NCBI GenBank assembly: GCA_020720405.1
Contig: DYOS01000009.1
Span: 1-45,609, forward strand
Reading direction: 5' to 3'
DNA from: Caldithrix sp.
GTDB lineage: Bacteria; Calditrichota; Calditrichia; Calditrichales; Calditrichaceae
DNA length: 45,609 bases
Shown here: in pieces, positions 4,676-42,343 of the stretch
Numbering within the stretch: the first letter of the stretch is position 1
Layout: each line of letters begins with the position of its first letter
Translations under genes and position numbers: made by a program
The notes under the pieces: generated by a model
What the model saw: the letters and a program-made list of their open reading frames with translations, nothing else
The model's database searches: none
Told to the model about the DNA's origin: nothing

Positions 4676-4683
4676 GTGAAGTG

Positions 4684-8087: not shown

Positions 8088-9802
8088 TGCGTACTTTTAC
8101 CATCTTTATCTTTGTCTTGACCCGATTCCTCTGGACGCAGGTTGTCTTTAACGAAGTGCTGTTTGATCCGGCCAGAAATGAAAGCCATGATGAATTTGTG
8201 GAACTGGTTAATATTTCCGCCCAGGTGGTGGATCTAAGCGGCTGGCAATTCTCAGACAGCAGCGGCAGTGATGAGCTGACCGATGCCGGCGGTGGTTTGC
8301 AGGCCCAACCCGGTCAGTATATTGTTATTCTTGATGGCAGTTATTTTGGCAACTCCACGGCTTACGAAAACATTATTCCCGCTTCTGCATTAATCGTCAC
8401 CATCTCTGATAATTCGCTGGGTTCGGGCGGATTAAGTAACAGCAAAGCAGAGCGCCTTCAACTCTTCGATGATCAGGGTCAGCCCATCGATATTTACCGT
8501 TACACCACAGATAATCCGCCCGGTCACTCTGATGAGAAAATTGACCGGCTGGCCGGGAATAATGCCTCGAACTGGAGTAACAGTACAATTTCCGGGGGTA
8601 CGCCGGGGGCGCTCAATTCGCTCAGTCCGGCCGACTTCGACCTCGGGCTTGTCCCGGGCAGCCTGTTCTGGACGCCTGTTTCCGGGCTTCTGCCCGGAAC
8701 TCTGCTGACCCTGAATTTTTCTGTGCAAAATACAGGTAGTCAAAATTTTGATGATAGTCTTCAGGTCAGCCTGCGGGTACGGCAAATTTTCCCTTTGCCC
8801 GATGATTTTCAGGAGGTTGAGAGTTGGCACGAAAAGATTGAAATCCTACCTGGCAGCCTCCGCCAATACAGCGCCGGTTGGAGCCCGGTGCAGTCCGGTT
8901 CTTTCGAATTTGAGGCAGCCATCAGCTTAGAAAAAGATCAACGCCCGGGAAACAACAGCATTCGTTCGCAATTGCAGATTCATGATTCCGGATCAAGCCT
9001 GTTTCTCAGTGAGATACGGTTTCTGACCCGGGAAGAGGAAGCGGAGTGGATTGAGATTTATAATGGCGGAGAAAAACCGGCCCTGCTGACCGGCTGGGGG
9101 CTGGCTGATAAACAGGACACCATTCGCATCGACTCACTGGTCTATATCTTTCCCAACCAGTATAAAATTTTATCCCGGGTAAAAAATATTGGATCAGCTT
9201 TTACTGTGCCGGATAGCCTGGTGCTGGTGGTTTCGTTGCCTTCACTCAACAATACTGAGGATGAAATTTACCTGCTGCCGCCAGGTGGCGGATGGCAGGA
9301 GCGGGTGGCGTACAGCACGGAGTGGCTGGAAGGGGAAGACTGGCGAATGCCTTCTTTGGAAAGAATTTTGTTTACGGCAGATGCCTCACGTCAGGACAAT
9401 TGGGGACCATCTACCGCAGCCGAAGGTGCAACACCCGCTGCCCCGAATTCCATTCGGTCAGTCAGCAATAAAAAAGTCTCCGCTAAATTAAGAATAGAAC
9501 CAAATCCATTTTCACCGGACGGAGACGGCTATGAAGATCATACCGTTATCCGGGTTGAACTGCCGGTTCATTCTGCCCGCTACCGGATGCATATTTTTAA
9601 TTTGGCTGGCCATAAAATCCGCTCGCTATCCGACAATACCTACACGGGTTCTTCACTGGAACTGATCTGGAACGGCCGGGATGACCGGGACAGGCTGGTG
9701 CCGACCGGAATTTATATTGTCTGGCTGCAGGTTCTGGATGACCGTTCCGGAGTGCTTGCTGAGTATAAAAATACAGTCGTTGTTGTCCGAACCGTAAATT
9801 AG
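8087..9802 (+). CDS. Secreted lamin-tail domain protein with FlgD-like C-terminus
   Basis: A 571-residue exported protein. A signal peptide (about 1-18) is followed by a lamin-tail domain (about 20-175; VVFNEVLFDP, EFVELVNIS, DLSGWQFSD), a CARDB/Ig-like segment (about 185-300), and a second lamin-tail-like domain (about 303-430; LFLSEIRFL, EWIEIYNGG, TGWGLADK). The last ~95 residues (RIEPNPFSPDGDG...VPTGIYIVWLQV) form a FlgD-like Ig/type IX-sorting-like module. Secreted lamin-tail domains are usually thought to aid surface attachment or to accompany hydrolases. No catalytic domain is visible. No clear terminator follows in the 178-bp gap. Confidence 0.85.
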   Translation: MRTFTIFIFVLTRFLWTQVVFNEVLFDPARNESHDEFVELVNISAQVVDLSGWQFSDSSGSDELTDAGGGLQAQPGQYIVILDGSYFGNSTAYENIIPASALIVTISDNSLGSGGLSNSKAERLQLFDDQGQPIDIYRYTTDNPPGHSDEKIDRLAGNNASNWSNSTISGGTPGALNSLSPADFDLGLVPGSLFWTPVSGLLPGTLLTLNFSVQNTGSQNFDDSLQVSLRVRQIFPLPDDFQEVESWHEKIEILPGSLRQYSAGWSPVQSGSFEFEAAISLEKDQRPGNNSIRSQLQIHDSGSSLFLSEIRFLTREEEAEWIEIYNGGEKPALLTGWGLADKQDTIRIDSLVYIFPNQYKILSRVKNIGSAFTVPDSLVLVVSLPSLNNTEDEIYLLPPGGGWQERVAYSTEWLEGEDWRMPSLERILFTADASRQDNWGPSTAAEGATPAAPNSIRSVSNKKVSAKLRIEPNPFSPDGDGYEDHTVIRVELPVHSARYRMHIFNLAGHKIRSLSDNTYTGSSLELIWNGRDDRDRLVPTGIYIVWLQVLDDRSGVLAEYKNTVVVVRTVN

Positions 9803-9980
9803 ATGAATAGATATGAGCAATAGTGCATCTATACAACATACTTAACTTCAATATAAACAATACATAAGCAAGCCCAAAACAAGCCTTTTCCCTTTGCTTT
9901 TAGCTGTAGACAAGTTTAATTTTATCTCCTGAAATAAATCAAATCCTGTACCGGTTGTCCGGTCTAAATAGGAGGTTCAA

Positions 9981-11606
9981 ATGTCGAATGCCTTTTTTAA
10001 AGTACCCACACCGGTCAATGAACCGGTTCTTTCATATGCCCCGGGCAGCCCGGAACGGGCCCATCTCCAGCAAGCCCTGAACGAGCTGAAAAACAACCCC
10101 GTGGAAATCCCCCTGATTATCGGCGGGAAGGAAATCCGAACCGGCAAAACCGAACAGATTACTGCACCGCATGATCATTCGCAGGTACTCGGTTTTTATC
10201 ACAAAGCCGGGAAGGATGAGGTTGAACTGGCTATCAAAGCAGCGCTCGAAGCCCGCACAGCCTGGGCCGACCTGTCCTGGGAACACCGCCTTTCGGTATT
10301 TCTGAAAGCAGCCGAACTGATTGCCGGTCCCTGGCGCTATAAAATGAATGCAGCGACCATGCTTGGTCAGTCCAAAACGGTTTTCCAAAGTGAGATTGAT
10401 GCTGTGGCCGAGCTGGCCGATTTTTACCGTTTCAACGGTTTTTTCATGGCTCAGATTATGGGCGATCAACCTCTGTCCGTTCAGGGTGTCTGGAACCGGA
10501 TGGAATATCGTCCACTGGAAGGTTTTGTCTTTGCGGTAACACCATTCAATTTCACCTCCATTGCCGGCAATCTGCCAACGGCACCGGTCATGGTTGGTAA
10601 TGTTTCCCTGTGGAAACCGGCCTCGAGCGGTGTTTATCCGGCCTACTTCATTATGAAACTGTTGCAGGAAGCCGGACTGCCCGATGGCGTTATTAATTTT
10701 GTGCCCGGTTCCGGCGGACAGGTTGGCAATCCGGTTATGGCCAGTGAGTATCTGGCCGGTATACATTTTACCGGTTCAACCGAGGTTTTTCAGAATATGT
10801 GGAAAACGGTCGGCAACAATATCTTTAATATGAAATATTACCCGAGAATTGTTGGTGAGACCGGCGGCAAGGATTTTATTTTTGCCCATGCTTCGGCCAA
10901 TGTCAAGGCCCTGGTTACGGCTGCACTGCGCGGCTCTTTTGAGTATCAGGGGCAAAAATGTTCCGCGGTTTCCCGCATGTACATACCAAAATCAATCTGG
11001 CCGGAATTCAAAAGCCTTTATGTGCAGGAAGTCTCAAAAATTAAAATGGGTAATCCCGAGGATTTTCATAATTTTATGGGTGCGGTTATTGACCGCGGGG
11101 CTTTTGAAACCATTACGGCCTATATCGATGAAGCTAAAAAATCAGCAGATTGCGAAATTATCACTGGTGGAAACTACGATCTGAGCAAAGGCTGGTTTAT
11201 TGAGCCGACAACCATTGTTACCAGCAATCCCCATTACCGCAGTATGCGCGAAGAAATATTTGGCCCGGTTCTGACCATGTATGTTTATGAGGACGAGAAA
11301 CTGGATGAAACCCTGACCCTATGTGATACCACAGCCAGTTACGCCCTGACCGGTGCGGTTTTTGCCAGTGACCGCCAGGCCATTTCAAAGATTATGGATG
11401 CACTGCGCAACAGTGCCGGAAATTTCTACATCAACGACAAACCAACCGGGGCGGTAGTCGGACAGCAGCCGTTTGGCGGAGGCCGGGCTTCGGGAACCAA
11501 CGATAAAGCCGGCAGCGCCATGAATCTGATGCGTTGGATGACCGCCCGCTCGATCAAAGAAACAATGGTTCCGGCGGAAGACTGGGTTTACCCGTTTATG
11601 GCCTGA
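9981..11606 (+). CDS. pruA: L-glutamate gamma-semialdehyde (1-pyrroline-5-carboxylate) dehydrogenase
   Basis: A 541-residue aldehyde dehydrogenase that oxidises glutamate semialdehyde/P5C to glutamate with NAD+, the last step of proline (and ornithine-derived) catabolism. Typical residues are visible: VTPFNFT, the NAD-binding FTGSTEVF, the general base in GETGGKD (Glu293) and the catalytic Cys327 in GQKCSA. Length and N-terminus match the monofunctional ALDH4A1-like branch, not the long PutA fusion. AGGAGG at 9970-9975 sets the ATG. It appears to be a single transcription unit: 178 bp lie upstream, and a strong hairpin terminator follows. No proline dehydrogenase gene is in the window. Confidence 0.95.
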   Translation: MSNAFFKVPTPVNEPVLSYAPGSPERAHLQQALNELKNNPVEIPLIIGGKEIRTGKTEQITAPHDHSQVLGFYHKAGKDEVELAIKAALEARTAWADLSWEHRLSVFLKAAELIAGPWRYKMNAATMLGQSKTVFQSEIDAVAELADFYRFNGFFMAQIMGDQPLSVQGVWNRMEYRPLEGFVFAVTPFNFTSIAGNLPTAPVMVGNVSLWKPASSGVYPAYFIMKLLQEAGLPDGVINFVPGSGGQVGNPVMASEYLAGIHFTGSTEVFQNMWKTVGNNIFNMKYYPRIVGETGGKDFIFAHASANVKALVTAALRGSFEYQGQKCSAVSRMYIPKSIWPEFKSLYVQEVSKIKMGNPEDFHNFMGAVIDRGAFETITAYIDEAKKSADCEIITGGNYDLSKGWFIEPTTIVTSNPHYRSMREEIFGPVLTMYVYEDEKLDETLTLCDTTASYALTGAVFASDRQAISKIMDALRNSAGNFYINDKPTGAVVGQQPFGGGRASGTNDKAGSAMNLMRWMTARSIKETMVPAEDWVYPFMA

Positions 11607-27190: not shown

Positions 27191-28462
27191 GTGAAACTGT
27201 TTCTGTACTTAACAGGATTAATTTTCCTGACCTATTTTCAGGCGATCAGCCAGGAACTGAAAACCCAGGAATCAAATCAAAATCTTTTTGACCGGCAGAA
27301 TTCAAAATATGAAACATCAATGGAGCGGTTTTATCAGAGCCGTTCTGTAATCCGGACAATTTCGCCCCAGGTTTTGGAAGGTGTTCTGGATAAAGAAAAT
27401 TATCTGTTGGGACCGGGTGATCTTTTTCTAATCAGTGTGCTTGGTGAAATAGAATTTACTTATAGCGCCGAAGTGCTTCCCGATGGCAGTGTGGTTATTC
27501 CAACGGTTGGTACCGTGAGCGTGGATGGAAAAAAACTCGGTGCAGCAGAGGAAGAAATTGTTACGGCCATCAAAAAGATGTACAACCGTGGCGAAATTAA
27601 GGTCGCCCTGATTGGTTTGCGAAAGTTTCGGATCTACCTGACCGGTGAGGTAAGAAACCCCGGTACCTATTTTGCCCAGGGTTCGGACCGCTTGTCCGAT
27701 ATTATTGAAATTTCTGCCGGCCAGAATCAGACCACCAGGGAAGGGCTGATTGTAAGTTCAAGTGGTTTGAATGACTGGGCTGATAACACCCGCATCCAGG
27801 TTCGGCACCACGATGGCTGGAGCGATGAGTATGATCTTTCCCGGTTTTATAAGGATGGCGACATCAGTCAGAATCCGTTCCTGATGAGCGGGGATATGAT
27901 TATTGTGCCATCGATAAATCTTGACAATGATTTCGTGATTTTAGAAGGGAATATTGGTCTGCAGGGTTTATACCCGTTACGGAAGAATGAAAGTATCATC
28001 GGTTTTTTACAACGGGTGTCGGCGCTCAAACAATCGTCAAATCTTGAAAAAATAATGGTCATGCGGGATAATAAATCGACTCAGATCAATTTTTATGATG
28101 AGGTTGATGAACAAAATGTTTTTTTGCTCCAAAATCGCGACCGAATCATTATTCCGACCAATTACGACCGGGTGTATGTGCGGGGTGAGGTAGCCAGCCC
28201 GGGTTCGTATGGTTATATCGCCAACTATAAAGCCTCAGATTATATCGGCATAGCCGGTGCACTTGAAACTGCCGGGAAGAGCGGGAAAATCAAAACCATC
28301 CGCCAGACTACAGGTGAGATTCTGGAAGGCGGTGATATAATAGTGTACAAAGGTGATACTATTATCCTGAATAAACGACCACGTGAGGTGACCAAAGAGT
28401 ATATGCAGATATTAGCTCCCATCATCTCAATAGTTATAGCAACACTTGCTTTAATAAAATAA
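27191..28462 (+). CDS. Polysaccharide export protein (Wza-like, SLBB domains)
   Basis: A 423-residue periplasmic/outer-membrane exporter. A signal peptide (about 1-20) precedes a Poly_export domain (about 72-150; LLGPGDLFLISV, VLPDGSVVIPTVG) and three SLBB-like segments (about 150-200, 255-300, 325-375). It ends in a hydrophobic helix (about 403-423). No lipobox cysteine follows the signal peptide, unlike E. coli Wza. The start is GTG at 27191, 2 bp after the wecB stop. Together with the Wzz-like protein next door it probably forms the export channel. Confidence 0.9.
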   Translation: MKLFLYLTGLIFLTYFQAISQELKTQESNQNLFDRQNSKYETSMERFYQSRSVIRTISPQVLEGVLDKENYLLGPGDLFLISVLGEIEFTYSAEVLPDGSVVIPTVGTVSVDGKKLGAAEEEIVTAIKKMYNRGEIKVALIGLRKFRIYLTGEVRNPGTYFAQGSDRLSDIIEISAGQNQTTREGLIVSSSGLNDWADNTRIQVRHHDGWSDEYDLSRFYKDGDISQNPFLMSGDMIIVPSINLDNDFVILEGNIGLQGLYPLRKNESIIGFLQRVSALKQSSNLEKIMVMRDNKSTQINFYDEVDEQNVFLLQNRDRIIIPTNYDRVYVRGEVASPGSYGYIANYKASDYIGIAGALETAGKSGKIKTIRQTTGEILEGGDIIVYKGDTIILNKRPREVTKEYMQILAPIISIVIATLALIK

Positions 28463-28478
28463 TAAAGGATATTCCGTA

Positions 28479-29603
28479 ATGGTAGATCAGATGCCACCTT
28501 TTCTAAATTTGATTAAATTGTTTTGGCAGAACCGTAAATTTTTATTTCTATTCAATATTACCATTATATTTTCATCAATCATTGTTTCTTTACTATTGCC
28601 TAAATGGTATAAAGCTGATGTTAGGATATTAATACACGAGGAGAATAAAACCGACTATGCAATTTCAAGTATGTTACAAGGATTGCCGATCAGTTTGGGA
28701 GCTACAAAGAATGATGTAATCATTGATAGAAATAAAGCAATATTAAACAGTAAGGATTTTTTAGATAAAGTGATTGATCAATTCCAATTAGAAAACAATT
28801 ACAAAGTTAAGTACAGAGAACAAATCTACCCGGCATTGCGACAAGATTTGTTTTTAATAGATAATAAAGATGGTACATTTTCCGTAATTGGCTATTATAA
28901 AAATGATGCCAAACTAGCTGCTGAACTTGTAGAATTTGTCACTGGGCGGCTCACTGAAAAAAATATTCAAATTAGTCAATCAAGTGCCAGAGCGTATAGG
29001 AATTTTATGGAAGAAACTTATAAGAGAGTTTCATCTGAGTTGGAATCTGTCGAGAATCAATTAGTTAGTTTCCAAAAGGAAAACGATGTGATTCAAGTGG
29101 ATGAGCAAGCGAAAGAAAGCATAAAAATGATAGCCAATCTTGAAGTCAAAAAGATTGAGTTAGAATTACAACTTAATTTTCTACAACAAAATTATGAAGA
29201 TAACCACCCAAATATAACTGCCATCCAAACTCAGATATCCCTGCTTCAAAATAAAATTGAAGATTTAAAACGAAACAAGAATTATTCAAATATTGCTCTA
29301 AACACTTTTCCTGATAATTACATGAGTTATATGCGTCACTACCGTGAAGTATTCATCCATGAAAAGATACTCGAAATTATTGTACCCCAATTAGAAAAAG
29401 CAAAAATTGATGAGGCAAAAAATGTTACAAATTTAATCATCATTGATCCTGTAAAAGTACCGCAATTAAAGGCTAAGCCTAAAAGAACTGCAATTGTGGT
29501 ATTGAGTACATTTTTTAGCTTAGTTATATCTCTTATTATTATTTATCTAAATAAAAGCTATAAGAGTAATAAAGAAAACATTAGTTTAATTTTCAAACAA
29601 TAA
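28479..29603 (+). CDS. Wzz-type polysaccharide co-polymerase / chain-length regulator
   Basis: A 374-residue inner-membrane protein with one membrane helix near the N-terminus (about 18-40), a long periplasmic coiled-coil part (about 150-270) and a second helix near the C-terminus (about 337-358) after a Pro-rich PKVPQLKAKPKRT segment. It has no cytoplasmic BY-kinase domain, so it is the Wzz/PCP-1 form. Codon and base use are clearly more AT-rich than in wecB and the wza-like gene. Its stop abuts the ATG of the next gene with no gap. Confidence 0.88.
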   Translation: MVDQMPPFLNLIKLFWQNRKFLFLFNITIIFSSIIVSLLLPKWYKADVRILIHEENKTDYAISSMLQGLPISLGATKNDVIIDRNKAILNSKDFLDKVIDQFQLENNYKVKYREQIYPALRQDLFLIDNKDGTFSVIGYYKNDAKLAAELVEFVTGRLTEKNIQISQSSARAYRNFMEETYKRVSSELESVENQLVSFQKENDVIQVDEQAKESIKMIANLEVKKIELELQLNFLQQNYEDNHPNITAIQTQISLLQNKIEDLKRNKNYSNIALNTFPDNYMSYMRHYREVFIHEKILEIIVPQLEKAKIDEAKNVTNLIIIDPVKVPQLKAKPKRTAIVVLSTFFSLVISLIIIYLNKSYKSNKENISLIFKQ

Positions 29604-30872
29604 ATGTATAACTTTACTATTCGTAATCTTCCATTAGTAACGTTTACTGCGATATGGATTATCGTTTTTGGATTATTTTTTGTTAATCCGTATAATTTTG
29701 AAAACCTGAGCAAGGATGGATTAGTCGTAATTATAACTGGTTTAATATCTGTATTATTAGGCTTCATCCTTTCTGCCTTATATTTGAAAGTCGGACTAAA
29801 CAGACTTAATTCAGACCAGAGTGTTTCTGCAGTCCGATTCAATTATAAAAATTTATGGCATCTTCATCTTATCACTATAATATTGTCTTTTATTGGATTT
29901 GTTTTTTTAACACTCCATTATAGCAGTGAGTCGAATGGCTTGGTGGAATTTCTGCAGAATCCAATTGCAGCCAGATACAAAGTGGTTCAGCTTTCAACTG
30001 CTGTGAAAACAGACTGGAGTTTTTTTTTATCAATCAGCAGTTACTTTCTGGATTTCAACTACATTGCATCAATACTTGGCGGAATTTTATTTCATTATAA
30101 TTCAAATCGAATCTTTACGTATGCCTCAATTTTCCTTGGAATACTAACTAGTATTATCACTTTTCAGCGATATTTTATTATTCATGTATTCATGCTTTGG
30201 TTCTTTTCATTAATAATTACTGGCTACATGATATCTGGTATTGATAAAAAAGTTCTGAGGCGGGGCTTTGTGAAAGCAGTTATTTTCCTGAGTCTCATAT
30301 TAGTTATTTTTTTTTCTATCATATTTGGACTTAGGCAGTCTTCAGATGAAGGTGATTTGAATACCAATAAAATTGCCGAATTGATTATCGAGAGTAACTA
30401 TACTTACCTCGCCGGAAATATTATTGCTTTCGATAAATATTACATTTCAAATGAGATATCCCCGTACAATGGTTTCTCTACTTTTAGGGATTTATTCAAA
30501 TGGTTGATTCGTGCAGGACTTTGGGATGAAAATAATTTTATAAATGTTAAACAGGAATTTGTAAGTGTTGGACAAAGTGAACTAAATACTTATACATTTC
30601 TTCGAAATTTCTATGAGGACTTTGGTGTTTTTGGGATTGCTATACTTAGTTTTTTCTGGGCCTTCTTTGGGCAAATAATATTTAACAGCACTCTAAAAAA
30701 GTTTTCTTTAGTAAAACTATTCCTATCGACACATTTATTATTCTCATTCTTTATGTCTTTTTATGGTTTTGCACTTCAAAATATGAATTTAATTGGGATT
30801 GTCTTTATCTTCATTTTGCTTCTGGAATTATTTATATATTCTGCAAATGAATTGTACACCATCGAAATTTAA
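29604..30872 (+). CDS. Probable O-antigen/polysaccharide polymerase (Wzy-like)
   Basis: A 422-residue integral membrane protein with about ten to twelve predicted hydrophobic helices and a large hydrophilic loop (about 265-335), the layout of Wzy-type polymerases. Sequence conservation in this class is low, so the call rests on topology and on its position between Wzz-like and Wzx-like genes. It is AT-rich like its upstream neighbour. The start ATG directly follows the wzz stop. Confidence 0.75.
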   Translation: MYNFTIRNLPLVTFTAIWIIVFGLFFVNPYNFENLSKDGLVVIITGLISVLLGFILSALYLKVGLNRLNSDQSVSAVRFNYKNLWHLHLITIILSFIGFVFLTLHYSSESNGLVEFLQNPIAARYKVVQLSTAVKTDWSFFLSISSYFLDFNYIASILGGILFHYNSNRIFTYASIFLGILTSIITFQRYFIIHVFMLWFFSLIITGYMISGIDKKVLRRGFVKAVIFLSLILVIFFSIIFGLRQSSDEGDLNTNKIAELIIESNYTYLAGNIIAFDKYYISNEISPYNGFSTFRDLFKWLIRAGLWDENNFINVKQEFVSVGQSELNTYTFLRNFYEDFGVFGIAILSFFWAFFGQIIFNSTLKKFSLVKLFLSTHLLFSFFMSFYGFALQNMNLIGIVFIFILLLELFIYSANELYTIEI

Positions 30873-30943
30873 TTTATGGATTTCTCTATTAAGAAATATA
30901 AAACCAGAGCACTTATTTATAAATTTAATATGCTGATCCGTCT

Positions 30944-32356
30944 ATGAATAAGCCAAAGACTGTATTCCTGTTGATGATAAGTGACTCCCTGGTCAGCCTT
31001 CTGGGATTGATCCGGTCAAAAATGATTGCCATCATCTACGGGGTTACACATGTTGGAATTCTTGGTCAGATAATTACATTTTATAATTTTGAAAATACTT
31101 TTGTAACGTTTGGGACTAAAATTGCCATTATAAATTTTACCGGGAGTGAACCTGAAAAAAAAGCCCGGATTTTTGGCTTTTCATTTACTTTTCTGGTATT
31201 GATAAATTTTTTCTATCTTATCGTTAGTCTATTATTATCAAAGCAAATTGCCTTATGGTTGTTTAATGACCCGGATCTGAAATATTTGGTTGTCTTTGTA
31301 ATTTTGTTAGCACCGCTTCAATCTCTGAGTTTTCTACTCGAATCGATGATGCAGGCAGAAAATCGCCTGGCATCATTAACACCGATTAAAATTGGTGCCG
31401 TTTTTACTGCTCTGGTTTTGCTGGTTCCAATGATTCATTATTATGGACTGATCGGGGTTATTGCCGACCTTGGGATTTGGTTTTTGACGAGTATTATTTT
31501 ACTGATCGGTTCTAATTTTCGTTATCTGCGCTTTAGTCTGAAAATTCCAATGGAAGATAGAGAGCTAGTTTATTCCATTGTCAAAATTTCCAGTCTGAAT
31601 ACAGTCAGATATATCGTAGGAGCACTTGCATTATTAGTCGTCCGGATTTTTATAGTACATTTTTTGAGTATGGAAGAGGCTGGACATTTCCAGGCAGTCT
31701 GGAGCCTGACCAACTACCTGAATATTGGCATTACTGCCTTTGGTTTTTACCTGCTGCCCAGGCTGAGTAATTTGACATCACATGAAAATACCGGAGAGGT
31801 TGTTCAGACTGAATTTATAAACTATATCGCCGCTTTTCTCCCTATGCTTCTGCTCTTGTTCATATTGCCTGAAATTCTGTTACAACTTTTATTCAGTTCC
31901 AGTTTTGTTCAGCTCAAGGGTATTCTATACTGGATGACCATGGCTAAATTCTTTGAAGCCATAATATTTTTCATAATTATCGTTTTCGAATCCCGCCAAA
32001 AAACGAATTTGTATTTGAGAGTCGAGCTGATAAAATCTGTGTTATACATTGGTTTGTCCTATCTGATGATCAGGCATTTTGGTTTGAATGGTATTATTGC
32101 CTCTGCTGTTTTGATAAATTTGATTTTGTCCCTGTATCTCATTTATCTGGTCAAATCCGAGTCATTATTTTCCAAAACCAGTACTATAATCAAAAATTTA
32201 ATTATTGTAATATTATTAAGTATCCTCTTTTATTATTTGGATCAACCGTGGATAAGTTTACCGATAGCTGCCGGAGCCCTGCACCTGCTGATTGGTTTTG
32301 GAAGATACAAATCGATCTTTCTAAATCTCCTCCAGCCTGGAACCACAACTATGTAA
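30944..32356 (+). CDS. Polysaccharide flippase (Wzx-like, MOP superfamily)
   Basis: A 470-residue membrane protein with about 12-14 hydrophobic segments. The N-terminal SLLGLIRSKMIAIIYG resembles the conserved start of PST/Wzx flippases. It would move lipid-linked repeat units to the periplasmic face for the Wzy-like polymerase. Gaps of 71 bp before and 91 bp after show no further gene. Confidence 0.86.
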   Translation: MNKPKTVFLLMISDSLVSLLGLIRSKMIAIIYGVTHVGILGQIITFYNFENTFVTFGTKIAIINFTGSEPEKKARIFGFSFTFLVLINFFYLIVSLLLSKQIALWLFNDPDLKYLVVFVILLAPLQSLSFLLESMMQAENRLASLTPIKIGAVFTALVLLVPMIHYYGLIGVIADLGIWFLTSIILLIGSNFRYLRFSLKIPMEDRELVYSIVKISSLNTVRYIVGALALLVVRIFIVHFLSMEEAGHFQAVWSLTNYLNIGITAFGFYLLPRLSNLTSHENTGEVVQTEFINYIAAFLPMLLLLFILPEILLQLLFSSSFVQLKGILYWMTMAKFFEAIIFFIIIVFESRQKTNLYLRVELIKSVLYIGLSYLMIRHFGLNGIIASAVLINLILSLYLIYLVKSESLFSKTSTIIKNLIIVILLSILFYYLDQPWISLPIAAGALHLLIGFGRYKSIFLNLLQPGTTTM

Positions 32357-32447
32357 ATAGTTTAGCCGGCAGTATGAAAGAAATATTTAAGGATAGATGA
32401 GATGGATTTTATAAATTGTATAGAAGAATATTTACAGATTGAATAAC

Positions 32448-33635
32448 ATGAAAACGGGTAAAATATTAATTCTCACAGACGAATTTCCACCGGTTACAGG
32501 TGGGGCTGGAACATACTCATACGAGCTTGCTATTGGTATAGCCGGTTCTGGTAAATCTGTAACTGTCATAACCCGCTCAACGGGAACTGCTGCGAGCATA
32601 AAGGCAATCGATCTTGAATTAAAAATAAGATTCGCTGTGGAAGTCTTAAGATATTCAACTTTTTGGAAATTTTTCTTTGTTCAATTCCCCTGGCAGATAA
32701 AATCATTACTTCAAGATAAATCATTCCTGGATTATGATTTAATAATTGCGGCTGACTCGCGGATGGTCCGCTATCTGACACTTTTAAACGATGAGAAAGT
32801 TCTTGCAAAATCTCTGCTCATCTTCCATGGGGGTGAAGTCAAAACTTTTATAATCAAACCAAATCTTCAGGTTAGATTAAGTGGGATTTCCGGGCGATTC
32901 GCATCAGTATTACAAAAAAGCATAGGCTCCGTTTGTGTTAGCAGGGCTCTTCGCAATCAGTTTATCGGGCAACTGCCCGATTTGGAAAATAAATTTCATG
33001 TTGTAGCTCATGGCATTGATGTTGATAGTTTTAAGCCACTTACTTTTGATGAGAAAATATCAACCCGGGAAAACTATGGCTATCGGCAGAATGAGAAAAT
33101 AATAATCAGTGTATCCCGCTTAGTTCAGGGGAAAGGGCAAGATAAAATAATTTCTATTTTTGATGATCTGGCAAAAAAAATATCAGGGTTGAAATTATTG
33201 ATTGCCGGTGATGGACCTATGCTCGCAGAACTTCAGGCTCAAGCATCAAAACTGGTCTCAAAAAATGCTGTTCGGTTTTTAGGTAAAGTACCTCGCAATG
33301 AACTTAATAAATACCTTGGGATAGCGGATGTCTTCGTTCTTTTAAGTACTCTTGATGAGGGATTTGGAATTGTTTTTCTTGAAGCAAATGCTTGTGGTTT
33401 ACCTGTGATCGGCTGGGCTTCCGGCGGTGTGGTTGATGCAATCCATAATTATAAAAATGGCTTCATCTTACCAAATGGTGATTTGATTGGGGTTAGGGAT
33501 CGATTGATTGAACTGTTGAATGACGATGATCAACGGGAAATTTTATCCGATTCGGCAAGGGAATACGCTGTCGCAAACCATTCAAATCTCCGTATGGCCC
33601 GGGACACACTCCGACTGGTCGGAATTTCAGGCTAA
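32448..33635 (+). CDS. Glycosyltransferase family 4
   Basis: A 395-residue GT-B fold glycosyltransferase. The N-terminal glycine-rich acceptor loop is PPVTGGAGTYSYEL; the C-terminal domain has SRLVQGKGQD, AGDGP and the E-x7-E donor motif EGFGIVFLE followed by ASGGVVDAI. I chose the ATG at 32448 over a TTG three codons earlier. The donor sugar cannot be predicted. After it comes a 222-bp gap, the largest inside this locus. Confidence 0.9.
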   Translation: MKTGKILILTDEFPPVTGGAGTYSYELAIGIAGSGKSVTVITRSTGTAASIKAIDLELKIRFAVEVLRYSTFWKFFFVQFPWQIKSLLQDKSFLDYDLIIAADSRMVRYLTLLNDEKVLAKSLLIFHGGEVKTFIIKPNLQVRLSGISGRFASVLQKSIGSVCVSRALRNQFIGQLPDLENKFHVVAHGIDVDSFKPLTFDEKISTRENYGYRQNEKIIISVSRLVQGKGQDKIISIFDDLAKKISGLKLLIAGDGPMLAELQAQASKLVSKNAVRFLGKVPRNELNKYLGIADVFVLLSTLDEGFGIVFLEANACGLPVIGWASGGVVDAIHNYKNGFILPNGDLIGVRDRLIELLNDDDQREILSDSAREYAVANHSNLRMARDTLRLVGISG

Positions 33636-33857
33636 GTAAATCTTTTATTTCCAGTCATTTAATATAATGTCAATTCAAACTATTCAATCTCTTCTCATGT
33701 TTTGGTTATTTATTCCAACCCGATCATAATTCCCACTGCCAAGGAGTATAGCCAATCATTAATCTATGCGGTTCAGCCTTCGATTAAAGTTTGGGAAATA
33801 TCCGCCTCGTTTTTAATTTAGAATGTGGACAGTTATTAATCCGGATACTTTTTCTTT

Positions 33858-34970
33858 ATGCCAGATAAGTTGAAATACAAAATTCTCTACCTGATCACTT
33901 CCTGGGAGATTGGCGGTGCCGAAACTGCACTCTTAAAATTTATAAAACGTTTAATAGAAACTGGTTTCTCTTCAGAAAATATTATGGTTATTGCTCTGAG
34001 CCCGAACGGTAGTCTCCGGGAAAAATTTAGGGAACTGAATATCCAAACATTCAGCTTGGGCCTGATGAGCCCATATGAACTTTATAAAGCACTAAAGCTT
34101 AAAACTTATATAAATGATTTTAAGCCTGACATACTCCATACACATTTGCTCAAAGCTGATCTGGTCGGAGCCGTCATTGGCAGAATATGCCAGGTGAAAA
34201 AAATCGTCTCGACCAAGCATAATGGCAACCAGTTACTAAACCGGGCAAAAAAGATTCTTGAAAAAGGGATTGAGAGTTTTATCGATCTGCATATCTCTGT
34301 TTCTGATGCAGTAAAAACCGACATGGTCAAGCGTGGCATTCCGGAGCAGAAAATCAAAACAATTCCTATTTCTACGATTAACCCACTTAATAAAAATCTG
34401 ATTGCCCCAATCTTGAGTGAGAACAAAACATTTACAATCGGAGTATTAAGCCGGCTTCATCCTGTAAAGTCCTTTGAAGATATTGTTCTGATGACTCAAT
34501 ACCTTCTGCAGAGGAAATATTCAGTATCAGTGATTATTGGCGGGGAGTTTAATAATGAATATGGCAGACGCATCAGTCGAATGATCGATGCATTTGGATT
34601 GTTAGATGTGATTACAATGCTCGGTACTATTGATGATCTGACTAGTTTCTTTTCCCGGATTGATGTCCTGGTTTCAGCATCTATCTCCGAAGGCTTCCCG
34701 CAGTCACTTATTGAAGCAATGGTTTACTCTCTGCCAGTTGTGGCCACGGCAGTAGGAGGCGTTCCTGAATTGGTTATCGATGGGCAAACCGGGTTTTTGG
34801 TTCCGCCGCGGTGCCCTGAACTTTTGGCGGATAAAGTAGAATTCTTAATCAAAAATCCTGAAATTAGAACCCGGATGGGAATCGCTGGAGAGATGCGTGT
34901 CCGGGACCATTTTACTCTTGATGCGATGATAGAAAAAACACTGATACTCTATGACAGATTGATGGGTTAA
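33858..34970 (+). CDS. Glycosyltransferase family 4
   Basis: A 370-residue GT-B glycosyltransferase. Visible features are SWEIGGAETALLKF at the N-terminus, HTHLLKADLVG, SRLHPVKS and the donor-site E-x7-E motif EGFPQSLIE followed by ATAVGGVPELV. No Shine-Dalgarno site precedes the ATG. The next glycosyltransferase starts 11 bp after its stop, and the C-terminal motifs of the two are similar (ATAVGGVP), so they may be ancient paralogues. Confidence 0.92.
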   Translation: MPDKLKYKILYLITSWEIGGAETALLKFIKRLIETGFSSENIMVIALSPNGSLREKFRELNIQTFSLGLMSPYELYKALKLKTYINDFKPDILHTHLLKADLVGAVIGRICQVKKIVSTKHNGNQLLNRAKKILEKGIESFIDLHISVSDAVKTDMVKRGIPEQKIKTIPISTINPLNKNLIAPILSENKTFTIGVLSRLHPVKSFEDIVLMTQYLLQRKYSVSVIIGGEFNNEYGRRISRMIDAFGLLDVITMLGTIDDLTSFFSRIDVLVSASISEGFPQSLIEAMVYSLPVVATAVGGVPELVIDGQTGFLVPPRCPELLADKVEFLIKNPEIRTRMGIAGEMRVRDHFTLDAMIEKTLILYDRLMG

Positions 34971-34981
34971 AAGGAAATTTT

Positions 34982-36145
34982 TTGCCAAAAGTATTACTGA
35001 TTCAGTCCCGTTTTGTGATTGGCGGGCCTTCTCAGCAGAACCTGCTTATTGCTGAAGAACTTATAAAAAATGGATTCGAAGTTATTCTGGTTTCCGGGGC
35101 AGGCGATACTAAAGAAAAGCTTGTTATATCAGAAAGTGAACACCCGCATCTTGATTTCAGAATTATCTATGAGATGGGCAGGAATGTCCATTTTTATGAT
35201 GATTTTATCTCACTTTATAAACTGGTACGGTTGATTGCATCTGAAAAGCCGGATATTGTACATACCCATACCGCGAAAGCAGGCGCAATAGGACGGTTGG
35301 CTGCCTGGTTGATGCGGGTTCCGGTCGTCATACATACTTTTCATGGCCATATCTTTCACAGTTACTTCGGCAAATTTGTTTCCAGAATTTTTATTGAACT
35401 TGAGAGAATGTTTGCGTGGTTGTCAGATATAATCATTGTTTTGAGCCCATCACAATATCAGGATATTGTGTTTAATTACAGAATTTCACGTCCGGGGAAG
35501 ACAAGAATTATCAGACTTGGTTTCCGCTTCTCCAAGGATGTTTCACCCGAGCCGGGTCAAATGGTTTGGGAGAAATATAAAATTGACAGACAGCAGGCTA
35601 TAATCATTACGGTTGGTCGTTTTGTTCCTATAAAAAATATAAGACAGGTTATCCGTGTCTCCCGCTGGTTTAAAGATAATTCTGAAATTCCTGTTCATTT
35701 TCTGCTGGTTGGAGATGGTGAATTGCGAAATGAAATTCAGGAGGAAATTTTTAAAAACGGATTGGAAAAATCGGTCACCATTACCGGCTGGGTCAACGAT
35801 CTGGCAAAAATTTATCAGTCAGCTTCCATGCTGCTTTTAACCTCACATAACGAAGGAACACCGGTCACTATCATTGAGGCTGGTTCATGGGCTTTGCCGG
35901 TTGTAGCTACTGCAGTTGGAGGAGTTCCGGATATGATTACAGATGGAGAAAATGGTTTTCTTGTTGCACCGGAGAATGATTCACAAATGATTGAAAAAAT
36001 TAATTTTCTTCTCCGTGATGAAAGGCTCCGGAAAAGAATAGGTATGAACGGAAGAAACCGGGTATTGCGTGAATACGGTATTGAAACTTTGGTTCGAAAC
36101 ATCACTGACTTATATTCGACCCTACTGGAAAAGAAAAGACAATGA
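34982..36145 (+). CDS. Glycosyltransferase family 4
   Basis: A 387-residue GT-B glycosyltransferase. Key segments are FVIGGPSQQNLL, HTHTAKAGAIGRLAA, IHTFHGHIFHSYF, VGRFVPIKN, VGDGELR and the E-x7-E motif EGTPVTIIE with ATAVGGVPDMI. The start is TTG at 34982, supported by AAGGA (34971-34975) at 6-bp spacing. Its stop overlaps the ATG of the Wzi-like gene. Confidence 0.92.
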   Translation: MPKVLLIQSRFVIGGPSQQNLLIAEELIKNGFEVILVSGAGDTKEKLVISESEHPHLDFRIIYEMGRNVHFYDDFISLYKLVRLIASEKPDIVHTHTAKAGAIGRLAAWLMRVPVVIHTFHGHIFHSYFGKFVSRIFIELERMFAWLSDIIIVLSPSQYQDIVFNYRISRPGKTRIIRLGFRFSKDVSPEPGQMVWEKYKIDRQQAIIITVGRFVPIKNIRQVIRVSRWFKDNSEIPVHFLLVGDGELRNEIQEEIFKNGLEKSVTITGWVNDLAKIYQSASMLLLTSHNEGTPVTIIEAGSWALPVVATAVGGVPDMITDGENGFLVAPENDSQMIEKINFLLRDERLRKRIGMNGRNRVLREYGIETLVRNITDLYSTLLEKKRQ

Positions 36146-37845
36146 ACAGAATTTGGCTTTATATTATTTGGTTTTTAATATGTATTTCAGCGAGCCTGTA
36201 CTCAGCTTCCAATCCAGCCTCAGTACCCATAAGTCAGCCAGTCTATGCTTTTCTCGAACGCATGGAGGTGCTGGGTTTGCTCGATACACCGCTGCCCGAT
36301 ACCCGACCGATGTCCCGTGGTAAAATTGCTGAGATTCTTCTTCAAATTGCCCCAAAACAGGACTTACTAACTGCCGTAGACAAAGTCCGGCTGCAGAAAT
36401 ATCTGCTCGATTTCCGTTACGAGCTTCAAACTGGTAAGTATAATCTGAATTCTCCCGGCAGCGACGTTTTCTCTCCACTGCAAAACTGGACAACCATCAA
36501 AAAAGAGTTTGTCCGCTTTTTCATGGCACCCTATCCGGCTGAAGAAAACCATGTCGTTCTCTGGGAAGACAGCCTGAACACTTTTTATTTTGATTATGAA
36601 CAGGGCCTGACTCATGACCGGGAAACGCAGCAGGAACAACAGCGCACTGCCAGCTGGCAGGCGTTTTTACTGCGCGGGCAGATCGATGTGGATTTTTCAT
36701 GGCAAATCCGGGTTGATCTGCAGTCCGTCTCCGGTGATCCGGGATACAGGGAGAATGATCCGATTATTAAAGAGAGCTTTAGTCAGCCAAATGATGAAAA
36801 TACAAAGATTTTTTCCGACCGGACCGGCGCTGAAATGGCCTGGTCAACCTCCTGGTTCGACCTGTCCTTTGCCCAGCAGGAAGTTTCCTGGGGGCCGGGT
36901 CAAAGCGGGAAATTAACCCTGTCCAATTATGCCGAGCAATATCCTTACCTGTTATTTCACAAGGACTGGCAGCGCTTCCGGTTTACCTCTCTGCATGGTA
37001 AACTTCAGTCTTACCCGATTGAAGACCCATTAACCGGCACACTAAATTATCCGGAAAAATGGCTGGCTGCCCACCGCCTGGAAATCGATCTGCTGAATAA
37101 TCTGACTATCGGTCTGAATGAAAACTATATTTATGGTCAGCGTTATGCGGACTGGGCTTATTTGTTACCCATAAATTTTTACAGGGGTACGCAGCATAAA
37201 TTACGTGACCGGGATAATGCGACCATCTCCATCGATTGGAAATACCGGCCAATTAAAGGCGTCAGTAGTTACGGTACAATTTTTATTGATGAGATGAAAA
37301 AAAGCGCCCTCGGTACCGATTGGTGGGGAAATAAACATGCCATCCTGGCCGGTCTGGCTATGGCTGACCCTTTTGCTCTGGAAAATACCGAACTCGTTTT
37401 TGAATACACGGCCATCATGCCCTGGGTGTATACTCACAATTATGCCTATAATTCCTACACCACGGATTACCGTTCGCTTGGCCACTGGGCTGGACCGAAT
37501 TCTCAGCTTTTCTATGCCCATCTGAAAAAGGATTGGCTGCCCCGACTAGCCACCGGTCTCAAATTTATCCAGTACAAACACGGTGATAATTATCCGGATG
37601 AGAATATCGGAGGGGACATTCTTCATGGGCATCTGGACTTGTTCCCGGGGCAGACTGAACCCCGTGAAACGCGCAAATTTCTGGAAGGAATATTGACCGT
37701 GCGGGATTCCTGGCAGGTGTACACAAAATTCGAGCCCTTCAACGGACTGCAAATCGAAGCACTCTACCAACTCAATCGACAGGAGATTGATAAACTGAAA
37801 AACCGGTTTAACGAACTTCACCTCGGTGTAGTGCTGGAATATTGA
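36142..37845 (+). CDS. Wzi-like outer-membrane capsule assembly protein
   Basis: A 567-residue exported protein with a signal peptide (about 1-22), then a helical segment (about 30-90) and a long stretch of alternating polar/aromatic beta strands ending in an aromatic C-terminus (VVLEY), as in outer-membrane barrels. The segment FAQQEVSWGPGQSGKLTLSN resembles the conserved core of the Wzi family, which holds capsule on the cell surface. The match is by eye and distant. Context, at the end of a Wzx/Wzy locus, supports it. Confidence 0.72.
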   Translation: MNRIWLYIIWFLICISASLYSASNPASVPISQPVYAFLERMEVLGLLDTPLPDTRPMSRGKIAEILLQIAPKQDLLTAVDKVRLQKYLLDFRYELQTGKYNLNSPGSDVFSPLQNWTTIKKEFVRFFMAPYPAEENHVVLWEDSLNTFYFDYEQGLTHDRETQQEQQRTASWQAFLLRGQIDVDFSWQIRVDLQSVSGDPGYRENDPIIKESFSQPNDENTKIFSDRTGAEMAWSTSWFDLSFAQQEVSWGPGQSGKLTLSNYAEQYPYLLFHKDWQRFRFTSLHGKLQSYPIEDPLTGTLNYPEKWLAAHRLEIDLLNNLTIGLNENYIYGQRYADWAYLLPINFYRGTQHKLRDRDNATISIDWKYRPIKGVSSYGTIFIDEMKKSALGTDWWGNKHAILAGLAMADPFALENTELVFEYTAIMPWVYTHNYAYNSYTTDYRSLGHWAGPNSQLFYAHLKKDWLPRLATGLKFIQYKHGDNYPDENIGGDILHGHLDLFPGQTEPRETRKFLEGILTVRDSWQVYTKFEPFNGLQIEALYQLNRQEIDKLKNRFNELHLGVVLEY

Positions 37846-37847
37846 TC

Positions 37848-40292
37848 ATGTTTTTTATTTATGTATTCTTCTCGGGTTTGCTGACGGCCCTCATGGTTAC
37901 TTTTCTGGTTCGCTCTATGGCCAGGCGATACCGGATTGGCGCGCTGCCCAATCCACGCACCATGCATCAATCATTCACACCAATCATGGGCGGTTTAGGT
38001 ATTGCTGCCGGATTTATCATCGCTCTGTTAACCGGTTTTTTATTTCGCCCGGAACTGATCAAATTATGGAATACCGGACTGAGCAGTATGCTGCTGGCCA
38101 TCATCGTTATTTTAATGACTGGAATTCTGGATGATAAATTTACAATCAGTCCGTTCCAGAAATTATCAGGTCAGGCCTTATCAGCCCTGATCCTGTTGTT
38201 CGGCGGCTGTGCAATTCAACAGATTTCCGTGCTTGGGTTTGTTTTCCCTTTGGGTATTTTATCCTGGCCGCTGACCTTTCTGTGGATTGTCGGCGTGATG
38301 AATGCGGTTAACCTGATGGATGGGCTGGATGGTCTGGCCGCTGGTGTCAGTCTGATTGTTTCGATTATTTTTGCGGTGCTGGCCTGGCTGCGGCAGGATG
38401 TTGCTTTGATTCTGCTCAGCCTGAGCCTGATCAGCGGAATAGCCGGGTTTCTGAAATATAATTTTCGGCCGGCCAGTATTTTTATGGGTGATACCGGATC
38501 CTTGTTTCTCGGTCTGATGCTGGCCGTCCTCTCGCTGAAATCCTTCCGTTCGCCGGCCGACGGTTTCTATCCGGCAACGGCCTTGATTGCCCTCGGTGTT
38601 CCGGTAGGTGATACGGTTCTGGCCTTCTTCCGCCGGCTCTACCAGGGCAACCATCCCTTCAAAGCTGATAAAGATCATCTCCATCACCGGCTGATATTTC
38701 TCGGAATTTCTCATCTGCAGGCAGTATTAGTTATCTATTTTGCCTCACTGCTCTACATGATAACAGCCTTGACCATGAGTCTGAAACCCGGGCTGATTGC
38801 CCATCTGGCTCTGGCTGTGATTCTGGTAATCTCGGTGTTGGCCCTGCGCCGGTTGGGCTATCTCGAAGCCCGGGAATTTAAGACCATTCCCGGGGATGGT
38901 TCGGTTATACAGGTTGCTCAGGCTGTCGGCCCGATTTCATTGCGCCGTCTCGTTCATCGCATCACGCTGATTACAACCGATCTGTTAAGTATTAACCTGG
39001 CTTTTCTCTTCACCTGGTGGGTCAGATTCGATTCTGGCTTTCTCGGTCTGACCCAGGCGATTTCCTGGACGGATATGATTAACTCGCCGGTTCTGATTCT
39101 CCTCTCGGTATTCTGGACAGGTCTTTTCTTTATCAATAATCTTTACCAAATGCGTTGGGATATTTCGCGCTTTGAAAAGGTCCGGCGGGTCAGCCGTGTA
39201 ATTATTTTTGGCATGATGGTTATCTTCCTGACGACCATTGACCCGGATAATCTGCTTTCCTCCGGGCGGATTGCCCTGGCCATATATTTTATGGCCTTGC
39301 TTTTCCTGGTCAATGCCGGACGGCTGTTATTGATTGCCGGGCAGAAGTATTTCAGCATAATGGAATACGCCCGCCATGCATCTTTACTGATCGGTGCCTC
39401 CGAAAAAAGCCGCAAGCTGCTGAGAACTCTGATGACCAACCCGCATCTGCGCTACAATTTCGTTGGTATTTTGAGCAGGGAGCCGCTCAATTTTGCACAA
39501 TTTGCCGGTCTGCCTGTTCTGGGAACCTATGAGGATATTCAGCAGGTGGTGCTCAAAAACAGTATCGAAGAAATTGTTGTAGCCATTGATGAACGCTCCC
39601 GCGACCAGGTCATGAATATCATTGCGCCTGTGCTGATGATGAAGGTGCAGATAAAAATTCTGCCGCACATGGACGAACTGCTGAGCGGACATAAAAGGGA
39701 AGAAACCCTCGGTCATCCCCTCATCCATCTGTTCCCGGAAAACATGTATCTCTGGCAGTGGATGCTCAAACGAATATTGGATATCACTGCTTCCGGTCTG
39801 CTGATTCTAATGCTTAGTCCTTTGTTTTTATTAATTGGATTCTGGATGATTCTAAGTGGAAAATCCAACCCGCTGCGGGTTCAAAACGTGGTTGGAAGAG
39901 ATAATGAGATTTTCGGCCTGCTCAATTTCGATGCCAATCCCGCTGACCGGCATCGGCTGAACCGCTTTTTATGGCAAAGCAGGCTGTACAAACTGCCGGC
40001 CCTTCTAAACATCCTGATCGGCAAAATGAGTTTTGTCGGGCCGCGTCCGGAAGAACCGGAAAACGTAAATCTGCTGCGCCAGAAGATCCGCTATTATAAC
40101 CGTCGTTTTATTATCAAGCCTGGATTAACCGGCTGGGCACAAATCCGTTACCGCTATGATGAAGCCTTAAAACACCAGCGCGAACTGCTCAGGTTCGACC
40201 TGTTTTATCTGGAGAATATGAGTCTGACCTTTGACATCCGGATCATCGTTCGTTCTGTACTGCTTTTCCTCAGTGGCTGGAGAGTCAAATGA
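37848..40292 (+). CDS. Fusion: WecA/TagO-type sugar-1-P transferase + degenerate WbaP/PglC-like module
   Basis: An 814-residue bifunctional-looking membrane protein. Residues 1-340 are a polytopic WecA/TagO/MraY-type phospho-sugar transferase with intact motifs: DDKF (Asp95-Asp96), NLMDGLDGL (Asp158, Asp161) and DHLHH (276-280). It should start the repeat unit by moving sugar-1-phosphate, probably HexNAc-P, to undecaprenyl phosphate. Residues ~365-815 resemble a WbaP-type polyprenyl glycosylphosphotransferase: four to five helices, a CoA_binding_3-like domain (about 505-610) and a Bac_transf domain (about 640-814; MSFVGPRPEEPE, KPGLTGWAQI). The catalytic Asp-Glu before LPxLLN is replaced by Tyr714-Lys715 and the KFRSM-type segment is altered, so this half is probably inactive. 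ATG 37848 is chosen over a TTG at 37842. Confidence 0.88.
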   Translation: MFFIYVFFSGLLTALMVTFLVRSMARRYRIGALPNPRTMHQSFTPIMGGLGIAAGFIIALLTGFLFRPELIKLWNTGLSSMLLAIIVILMTGILDDKFTISPFQKLSGQALSALILLFGGCAIQQISVLGFVFPLGILSWPLTFLWIVGVMNAVNLMDGLDGLAAGVSLIVSIIFAVLAWLRQDVALILLSLSLISGIAGFLKYNFRPASIFMGDTGSLFLGLMLAVLSLKSFRSPADGFYPATALIALGVPVGDTVLAFFRRLYQGNHPFKADKDHLHHRLIFLGISHLQAVLVIYFASLLYMITALTMSLKPGLIAHLALAVILVISVLALRRLGYLEAREFKTIPGDGSVIQVAQAVGPISLRRLVHRITLITTDLLSINLAFLFTWWVRFDSGFLGLTQAISWTDMINSPVLILLSVFWTGLFFINNLYQMRWDISRFEKVRRVSRVIIFGMMVIFLTTIDPDNLLSSGRIALAIYFMALLFLVNAGRLLLIAGQKYFSIMEYARHASLLIGASEKSRKLLRTLMTNPHLRYNFVGILSREPLNFAQFAGLPVLGTYEDIQQVVLKNSIEEIVVAIDERSRDQVMNIIAPVLMMKVQIKILPHMDELLSGHKREETLGHPLIHLFPENMYLWQWMLKRILDITASGLLILMLSPLFLLIGFWMILSGKSNPLRVQNVVGRDNEIFGLLNFDANPADRHRLNRFLWQSRLYKLPALLNILIGKMSFVGPRPEEPENVNLLRQKIRYYNRRFIIKPGLTGWAQIRYRYDEALKHQRELLRFDLFYLENMSLTFDIRIIVRSVLLFLSGWRVK

Positions 40293-42343
40293 AAGTCTCG
40301 GTTATTATTGTCAATTATAATGTAAAGAGCTTTCTGGAACAGGCGCTGCATTCGGCACAAAAAGCGCTCACCGCTATTGATTCAGAAATTTTTGTGGTCG
40401 ACAATGCTTCGGTTGATGGCTCGGTAGAAATGGTCCGCCAGCGCTTCCCGGAAGTCAGGCTGATCGCCAGCCGCGAGAATCTGGGTTTTTCCCGGGCCAA
40501 TAACCTGGCCATCACTCAGGCCGGTGGCGACTTTATCGTTCTGCTCAATCCGGATACAGTGGTGCAGGAAGACACTTTTCATGTTTTACTGAGTTTTTTT
40601 GATCGGAATCCCGCAGCCGGAGCGGCAACCTGTAAAATTATCAATCCCGACGGCACATTTTCCGTGGACTGCCGGCACAGCATTCCGACGCCGGCCATCG
40701 CTTTCTGGAAGGCAATTGGATTCAGTTCCTTATTCCCGAAAAGCCGGCTGTTCGGCCGGTATAACCTGACCTATCTTGATGAAAACCAAACCGCCGAAGT
40801 CGAAGCAATTTCCGGTTCGTTTATGATGATCCGCCGGGAAACCGTGGCCAAGGTTGGTCTGCTCGACGAAACCTTTTTCATGTACTGTGAGGATATTGAT
40901 TATTGCCACCGCATCAATCTGGCCGGAGATAAAATTTATTATGTGCCGGATACTCAGATCATTCATTATAAAGGCGAGAGCACCAAAAAAAATAATATTG
41001 ACTATGTGGTAACTTTTAATAAATCCCTGTATCTGTTTTATAAAAAACATTATCAGCAAAGATACATTCTGCCCTTTAAATGGCTGATCTGGCTGGGTGT
41101 TGTTCTGCGCGGCATGCTCATTTTTATGCGCCAGAATCTGAAAACATTTTTTCCGGTATTAGCCGATTTATTTATTCTGAATGCTGTTTTTGCTGGTGGA
41201 TTTGCTTTACGCTATCTGGCACGGGGATCCTTTTCAATCGACAGGTTATGGTCTGATTTTGGTCTGGTTAACCTGCTGGCCAGTGTGTTGTTTTTCTTCA
41301 GCGGCATGTTTTTCAACATCCATACGGCGAACCGCCTGTCGCTGCTGCAAACTATTAAAAGCAATGCGGTTGCCCACCTGCTTTTAGCCGCGGCCACTTC
41401 TTTTCTGCGCCAGATCGCCTTTTCCCGTCTGGTTGTGGCGCTGGCCTTTATCCTGAACACCGCCCTTATGGTCTTGTGGAGAATCGGTTTTCGGAACTAT
41501 GCCCGGAAATTCACCAACCGGACTGGCGAGGATTATTTTGCCCGGCGCACCCTGTTGGTTGGTCTGCCGGAAGATGCCGGTCAGCTTAGCTTTCTTCTTC
41601 ATAACCGCGTCGATTCCGGCATCCGCCTGCACGGTTTGGTTTCGCCTGAAGCCAAGGACGTAGGGAAAAATGTAGCCGGGCAGGAGATTGTCTGCAGTCT
41701 TGAAAATATGCCGGAATATATCCGGCTAAACCGGATTAACCTGGTCATTTTTACCACAAAAAATATAAACTACACCGATATTTTGAGTACCATGAGCCAG
41801 GTTGGTTACCGCCAGGTTGAGTTTAAAATGGTACCGGAACATCTTGAATACATGATCGGCAAGGCACAAATCGAACCGCTCACCGAAGTTTCCCTGCTCG
41901 ACCTGGAATTTGCTTTGGAAAAGCCGTTCAATCAGTTTCTGAAACGTCTGATGGATTTAATGATCAGTCTGCCACTGGTGATTTTCGGCTCGCCTCTCGT
42001 TTTGATACTCTATCTCTTCAACCGACCGGGGCCGACTGCCGGCGGAGACAAAACCGGGCTGGGGACAGGTCAACCGCGGCTCCTCCGTCTCTGGCTAACC
42101 CTGATCGATGTAGCCCGGGGTTCATACAGCCTGGTCGGCCGTGACCGTTCGTATCCGACAGCGTTCCCAGGTGTGGTTTCGTACAAACCGGGATTAACCG
42201 GGATCATCCAGTTAAATCAGCCCAAAATCCGCAGTGAGCAGCACCGCCGGAATCTTGAAATTCATTACCTGAAAAATCAAAGTCTGGTACTGGATATCGA
42301 AATATTGCTCAAGTCGCTCTGGTCGGGTCGTTTCTTGCTCTAA
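40289..42343 (+). CDS. Fusion: GT2 glycosyltransferase + degenerate WbaP/PglC-like module
   Basis: A 684-residue protein that overlaps the previous gene by 4 bp. Residues 1-240 are a GT-A family 2 glycosyltransferase of the rhamnosyltransferase/WbbL type: [36 protein letters not shown] and EDIDYCHRI. Residues ~265-420 hold several membrane helices, ~430-560 a CoA_binding_3-like domain (RRTLLVGL), and ~565-684 a Bac_transf-like end ([35 protein letters not shown]). The positions of the catalytic Asp-Glu hold about Arg600-Leu601 and the helix before them is shortened, so no phosphoglycosyl transfer is expected. The GT2 half likely adds a sugar to the lipid-linked intermediate. Confidence 0.85.

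Follow-up and report, generated by a model that had tools for sequence, protein, structure and literature searches.

The stretch analysed here is contig DYOS01000009.1 of a Caldithrix sp. genome (GCA_020720405.1), 45,609 nucleotides long and called the window below. It carries two adjacent genes, A and B, in each of which an enzyme is fused in front of a large monotopic phosphoglycosyl transferase (monoPGT; PGT for the enzyme class) module of the WbaP type whose active site is lost. The front enzyme is a polytopic PGT of the WecA/MraY type in A, and a family 2 glycosyltransferase (GT2) in B.

Layout of genes A and B and loss of the monotopic active site

The plan of B proposed in the initial annotation, a GT2 followed by a WbaP-like membrane, CoA_binding_3 and Bac_transf module, is borne out by the Pfam matches PF00535 (GT2, 3.5e-24), PF13727 (CoA_binding_3, 1.8e-10) and PF02397 (Bac_transf, 3.1e-10), the last being partial and covering profile positions 94-175 only. 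The four-base overlap with the preceding gene is likewise present (Table 1). In an alignment with PglC and with the intact paralogue of the same genome (L070), the catalytic Asp-Glu dyad (D-E) is replaced in B by L-R, at about Leu599-Arg600, and the segment around it is shortened; the loss and the shortening had been read correctly, while the position given, Arg600-Leu601, was one residue off with respect to the translation. The D-E dyad, the KFRSM motif and the GPRP motif are all gone from the core of B.

The GT2 domain of B has the fold, the metal/donor motif and the catalytic acid of GT-A enzymes (PF00535, motifs and Foldseek matches to GT-A enzymes). Its motifs NPD (aa 87-89) and E201-D202 are invariant in 79 B homologues and the domain is presumed to be active. 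The top Foldseek match, RmlT (PDB 8bz7), together with RmlD, which is found near B in KSB1, G093 and G097 and was matched in 11 of 11 genomes tried (10 above cut-off), suggests that it is probably a rhamnosyltransferase or a similar enzyme. The cut-off of the rhamnosyltransferase family TIGR01556 is missed by B (51.5 against 200.55 bits).

In A the Pfam domain order is PF00953 (WecA/MraY type), CoA_binding_3 and Bac_transf, and the AlphaFold model matches both MraY and WbaP. The dyad is replaced by Y-K, and the neighbouring KFRSM is missing in the same alignment, so that the claim of a dead, dimer-prone WbaP module in both proteins holds by Pfam and by alignment of the dyad. The WecA motifs of A are intact (DD, NxxNxxDGLDG, GDTGS, DHLHHR). 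The DD, DGLDG and HxHH-type motifs were found in the N-terminus of every A-type sequence checked, and the GD motif, by the pattern used, in all except L053 and L058. With these motifs in place A is expected to work as a polytopic PGT carried on a dead WbaP scaffold. The core of this scaffold is well kept: its TM-score to PglC is 0.80 (by target length), GPRP, KPGLTGWAQ and YLENMS are retained, and Y-K, at 5.1 and 4.1 bits, is as conserved as D-E in live WbaPs. On these grounds the dead core of A may have a further use. One A gene (L075:842-3310, identical to L039, G014), from a metagenome-assembled genome (MAG), is split by an in-frame stop into open reading frames of 429 and 389 aa and is either a pseudogene or an assembly error.

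It is very improbable that the modules are still catalytic with a changed site, or relics on their way to loss. The core of A does keep its fold and several conserved motifs, but both dyad residues and KFRSM are gone, and this state is stable over whole phyla, unlike decay.

Table 1. Features of the A-B locus and its surroundings, in window positions
Feature	Position	Strand	Basis
Wzx/Wzy-type polysaccharide cluster: export protein, Wzz, polymerase, flippase, three family 4 glycosyltransferases (GT4)	27191..36145	+	
Wzi-like capsule assembly protein	36142..37845	+	
Gene A: WecA/MraY-type polytopic PGT and dead WbaP module, 816 aa	37842..40292	+	motifs, Pfam
Y716-K717 codons of A, at the place of the catalytic Asp-Glu	39987..39992	+	alignment
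ATGA overlap, stop of A and start of B	40289..40292	+	sequence
Gene B: GT2 glycosyltransferase and dead large-PGT (WbaP-like) module, 684 aa	40289..42343	+	open reading frame, Pfam
GT2 domain of B, aa 1-235	40289..40993	+	PF00535, GT-A motifs
Four-helix membrane bundle of B, aa 285-408	41141..41512	+	
CoA_binding_3 / DUF (domain of unknown function) Rossmann part of B, aa 415-512	41531..41824	+	PF13727
Beta-hairpin of B, aa 524-543, equivalent of WbaP Asn251-Gln268	41858..41917	+	PMC10942596
Re-entrant helix and remnant PGT core of B, aa 546-677	41924..42319	+	

The polysaccharide cluster also includes a UDP-GlcNAc 2-epimerase and has Wzi, A and B at its end, the order Wzi-A-B being retained in most f1 and f2 genomes. 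The genome of the window encodes a single intact monoPGT and, besides A, one PF00953 protein that is presumably MraY. At the other end of the window there are, in series, a Reg_prop/Y_Y_Y hybrid sensor with Hpt and HATPase domains, a response regulator and a CheX-like phosphatase (459-5130), and then an endonuclease I bearing a Por secretion (type IX) C-terminal sorting domain (5258-6847).

Conservation of the pair and the companions of B in other phyla

The Calditrichota sample comprised 40 genomes, many of them MAGs; those with a completeness of 90% or more and a contamination of 5% or less were taken as good, and B is present in all 23 of these. Across the phylum B is 44-57% identical and shows the same dyad loss, and this conservation rules out chance loss or an assembly error. 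The gene order, which the initial annotation had suggested checking, is conserved: A directly precedes B at 29 of 29 loci whose contig continues past them, and the five loci with only one of the two genes all end at a contig edge. The genes are mostly separated by short gaps or overlap, the pair of L051 being about 850 bases apart. Y-K is found in 32 of 33 A sequences, with N-R in L047, and the other monoPGTs from the same and related genomes have D-E-x-P-Q (21/21).

In one scan of genome contigs B was found at 80 loci, which belong to Calditrichota, KSB1, Ignavibacteriota/Kryptoniota, Zixibacteria and Gemmatimonadota. Among the 78 B modules that were read a working D-E site is never present; L089 has the bare letters DE with no motif next to them, and its sister L091 does not have them. 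At least five phyla have retained the transmembrane (TM) helices, the DUF and the hairpin of B. A standalone WbaP precedes B by a few genes in Ignavibacteriota and has D-E in 30 of 30 cases. The KSB1 neighbours of B are another GT2 and often RmlD before it, and AccA after it. A WecA-like gene that adjoins a B-like GT2 without any WbaP module was seen in G042 (C7:153516-155401).

The WbaP clade that goes with B could be recognised by its bimodal scores among 98 relatives (at least 484 bits for the clade, at most 413 for other large PGTs). In 58 genomes from outside Calditrichota, each from a different family, four carry this clade and five carry B, four of them shared (P = 1.2e-5, a test which rests on the five B genomes). 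KSB1 offers no co-occurrence contrast, since B and WbaP are each present in about 75 of 82 genomes among the matches listed, nor does the phylum of G097, which is represented by one genome. Outside Calditrichota the companion of B is a live WbaP orthologous to the module of A. The expectation of two neighbouring inactive modules is correct for Calditrichota and fails elsewhere. Similarly, the proposed co-occurrence exists between B and one WbaP clade (4/4 clade genomes have B) and not with the A fusion, which is usually absent where B occurs outside Calditrichota.

Homologues with an intact Asp-Glu pair, which the initial annotation had named as evidence to the contrary, exist for A and not for B. 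They are the WecA::WbaP fusions of L147 (3513-5993, Bacteroidota) and L065 (8254-10803, reverse strand, G093), chimeras of a WecA-type and a monotopic PGT which keep D-E as well as the WecA motifs, and so the motifs of both sites in one chain. The genes that follow A in G093 match those that follow B in the window (SerS, aldolase, acyltransferase). In the module tree, a quick search supported by the Shimodaira-Hasegawa-like approximate likelihood ratio test (SH-aLRT) only, the A modules of Calditrichota group first with these two live fusions and next with the WbaPs found near B and those of KSB1, G040 and G097 (SH-aLRT 99 and 97), apart from most other large Calditrichota monoPGTs. The B modules of all phyla fall into a single group, an old branch of their own, which rules out that one module was recently duplicated within the operon. 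The presence of two dead modules is a derived state special to Calditrichota. The simplest course of events would start from a system of WbaP and B, to whose WbaP a WecA was then fused; in Calditrichota the WbaP site would afterwards have been lost.

Live and dead large PGTs also stand together in KSB1, where the same WbaP clade is fused to a GT2 with D-E intact (L187, L188, L189, L190, L191), a fusion that links the two activities. In G178 a dead GT2::WbaP with DE changed to EK (9096-11369) starts 70 bases after one such live GT2::WbaP (L187:6722-9025), and in G173 a dead standalone WbaP with DE changed to EG (L195:10852-12297) is close to a live WbaP fusion. Such neighbourhoods of a dead and a live copy have thus arisen more than once. 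Other KSB1 WbaPs are fused to more distant GT2 domains of about 350 aa (L184:460-2901, L192, L193, L199 and L194:4491-6923, reverse strand).

Dimer contacts and the proposed docking of B on the initiating enzyme

WbaP is a homodimer formed through the beta-hairpin Asn251-Gln268 and the end of TM3, Ile99-Phe107 (PMC10942596). Both elements align to B, where aa 367-375 match the TM3 stretch, and the hairpin aligns to A. The 29 interface-equivalent positions of B carry 2.65 bits against 1.86 in the rest of the module (P = 2e-6), with the TM3 stretch standing out from the other TM columns (P = 8e-4). The best 33-column window of the module spans the end of TM3 and the start of TM4, the hairpin window is in the top 4%, and the catalytic insert has 0.95 bits. 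The hairpin is well kept in live WbaPs too; its significance in B is that it was retained while the core decayed. Two B homologues, in G040 (L069:6258-8003, reverse strand) and G046 (C38:771234-772847), consist of the GT2, the TM bundle and the DUF without a PGT core. That dimerisation is the function which the B module retained is well supported and probable.

A regulatory role, in which the dead module would sense uridine monophosphate (UMP), UDP-sugars or the undecaprenyl-linked product and tune the GT2 and, in A, the WecA domain, is improbable. The DUF of WbaP binds uridine nucleotides and UMP inhibits WbaP (PMC10942596), and the conservation of Y-K in A, along with that of its GPRP, KPGLTGWAQ and YLENMS motifs, suggests a ligand or surface that is still being used. 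However, with its insert poorly conserved, GPRP lost and the core absent from L069, core sensing is not the general function of B.

The explanation that we prefer is docking. B would be a glycosyltransferase that acts early, probably at the second step, in a Wzx/Wzy polysaccharide pathway; its WbaP module has lost phosphosugar transfer and would keep membrane anchoring and dimerisation through the hairpin of the DUF and the end of TM3. Its preferred partner would be the WbaP-type scaffold of the initiating enzyme. In Ignavibacteriota and KSB1 this would be a live WbaP; in Calditrichota it would be the scaffold of A, whose active site died after a WecA-type transferase had been grafted in front. 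Such a pair would keep the initiating and the following enzyme side by side on the membrane. That A, or a WbaP elsewhere, is the partner of B is the best reading, given how strictly the genes are paired, that B has one companion clade and that A kept its scaffold; its chances, like those of the docking explanation as a whole, are about even. Passage of the product between A and B, the channelling complex of the initial annotation, would be a further step and is unproven.

The same contacts can be read in another way, in which the module only anchors and homodimerises B as a platform for its GT2, A does likewise as A:A, and the neighbourhood reflects a shared pathway and not contact. Several observations weigh against docking, and part of them favour this homodimer. 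WbaP itself homodimerises, the conserved dimer contacts fit a B:B pair equally well, and the hairpin of B has a conserved sequence of its own, unlike the one seen in the WbaP clade. The KSB1 genes for B and for the WbaP orthologue are at separate loci. The co-evolution of the two modules, suggested for checking, gave no module-specific signal in the correlation of distance matrices (module with module given GT2 0.40; WbaP with GT2 given module 0.54). In addition, the donor sugar and the step number of B are drawn from similarity only, and the active sites in the WbaP dimer are 77 Å apart, so that a direct hand-over is not obvious (PMC10942596). A B:B homodimer, on the other hand, leaves unexplained the strict tie of B to one WbaP clade, the retention of the whole scaffold of A after catalysis was lost, though standalone WecA and MraY need none, and the proximity of live and dead copies in G178 and G173. 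We consider it rather unlikely that homodimerisation is all there is.

A broader view can be offered tentatively, with the balance somewhat against it. Dead large-PGT modules might be a general docking device, heterodimerising with live or re-armed initiators and bringing in the glycosyltransferase that acts next. The first chemical step could then be exchanged (WbaP for WecA) while the complex persists; inert scaffolds would have arisen at least three times (the B family, A of Calditrichota and the KSB1 copies).

Comparison with known systems

An open question in lipid-linked glycan assembly is how its enzymes come together, and the study of such membrane complexes and metabolons has been called a long-standing goal (eLife 2024, PMC10942596); a conserved pseudoenzyme module common to the first and the next enzyme would give a testable handle. 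A related case is that of Rhizobium leguminosarum, in which the initiating PGT PssA was reported by two-hybrid assays to contact later glycosyltransferases; there the contacts are weak and no dedicated docking module made of a dead PGT is described (PMC9860679). Literature searches of partial coverage found neither a dead large PGT nor a fusion of a polytopic with a monotopic PGT.

With the large monotopic PGTs WbaP and WcaJ (Salmonella WbaP, PDB 8t53) A and B share the four TM helices, the DUF (PF13727), the re-entrant helix and the PGT core, and of the dimer elements the hairpin aligns to both and the TM3 stretch to B. This architecture is recognised by Pfam matches above cut-off, a WbaP profile match of 4e-31 and an AlphaFold model with a predicted local distance difference test score of 86.6, the core of B being partial. 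They differ from active members of the group in having no Asp-Glu dyad (L-R in B, Y-K in A) and no KFRSM, and in the extra enzyme fused in front. Bi-PGTs, the class of monoPGTs fused to other enzymes as cited in PMC10942596, combine a PGT with a glycosyltransferase or another enzyme as A and B do. The class has two functional catalytic domains in one chain, whereas the monoPGT half is dead in B and in A, and the fusion partner in A is a second, polytopic PGT; both motif sets are intact in L147 and L065, and the KSB1 fusions with D-E (L187-L191) resemble ordinary live Bi-PGTs. The GT2 rhamnosyltransferases (TIGR01556; RmlT, PDB 8bz7) share with B the GT-A fold, NPD and ED, B being below the TIGR01556 cut-off and its donor only putative.

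Finally, the N-terminal half of A has all the motifs and the fold of the polytopic PGTs WecA and MraY (PF00953; PDB 5jnq, 4j72), to which A adds the C-terminal WbaP module. The Calditrichota case would record a swap of the initiating chemistry, from a monotopic to a polytopic PGT, on a retained scaffold, and L147 and L065 are fusions of this kind that keep both active sites.

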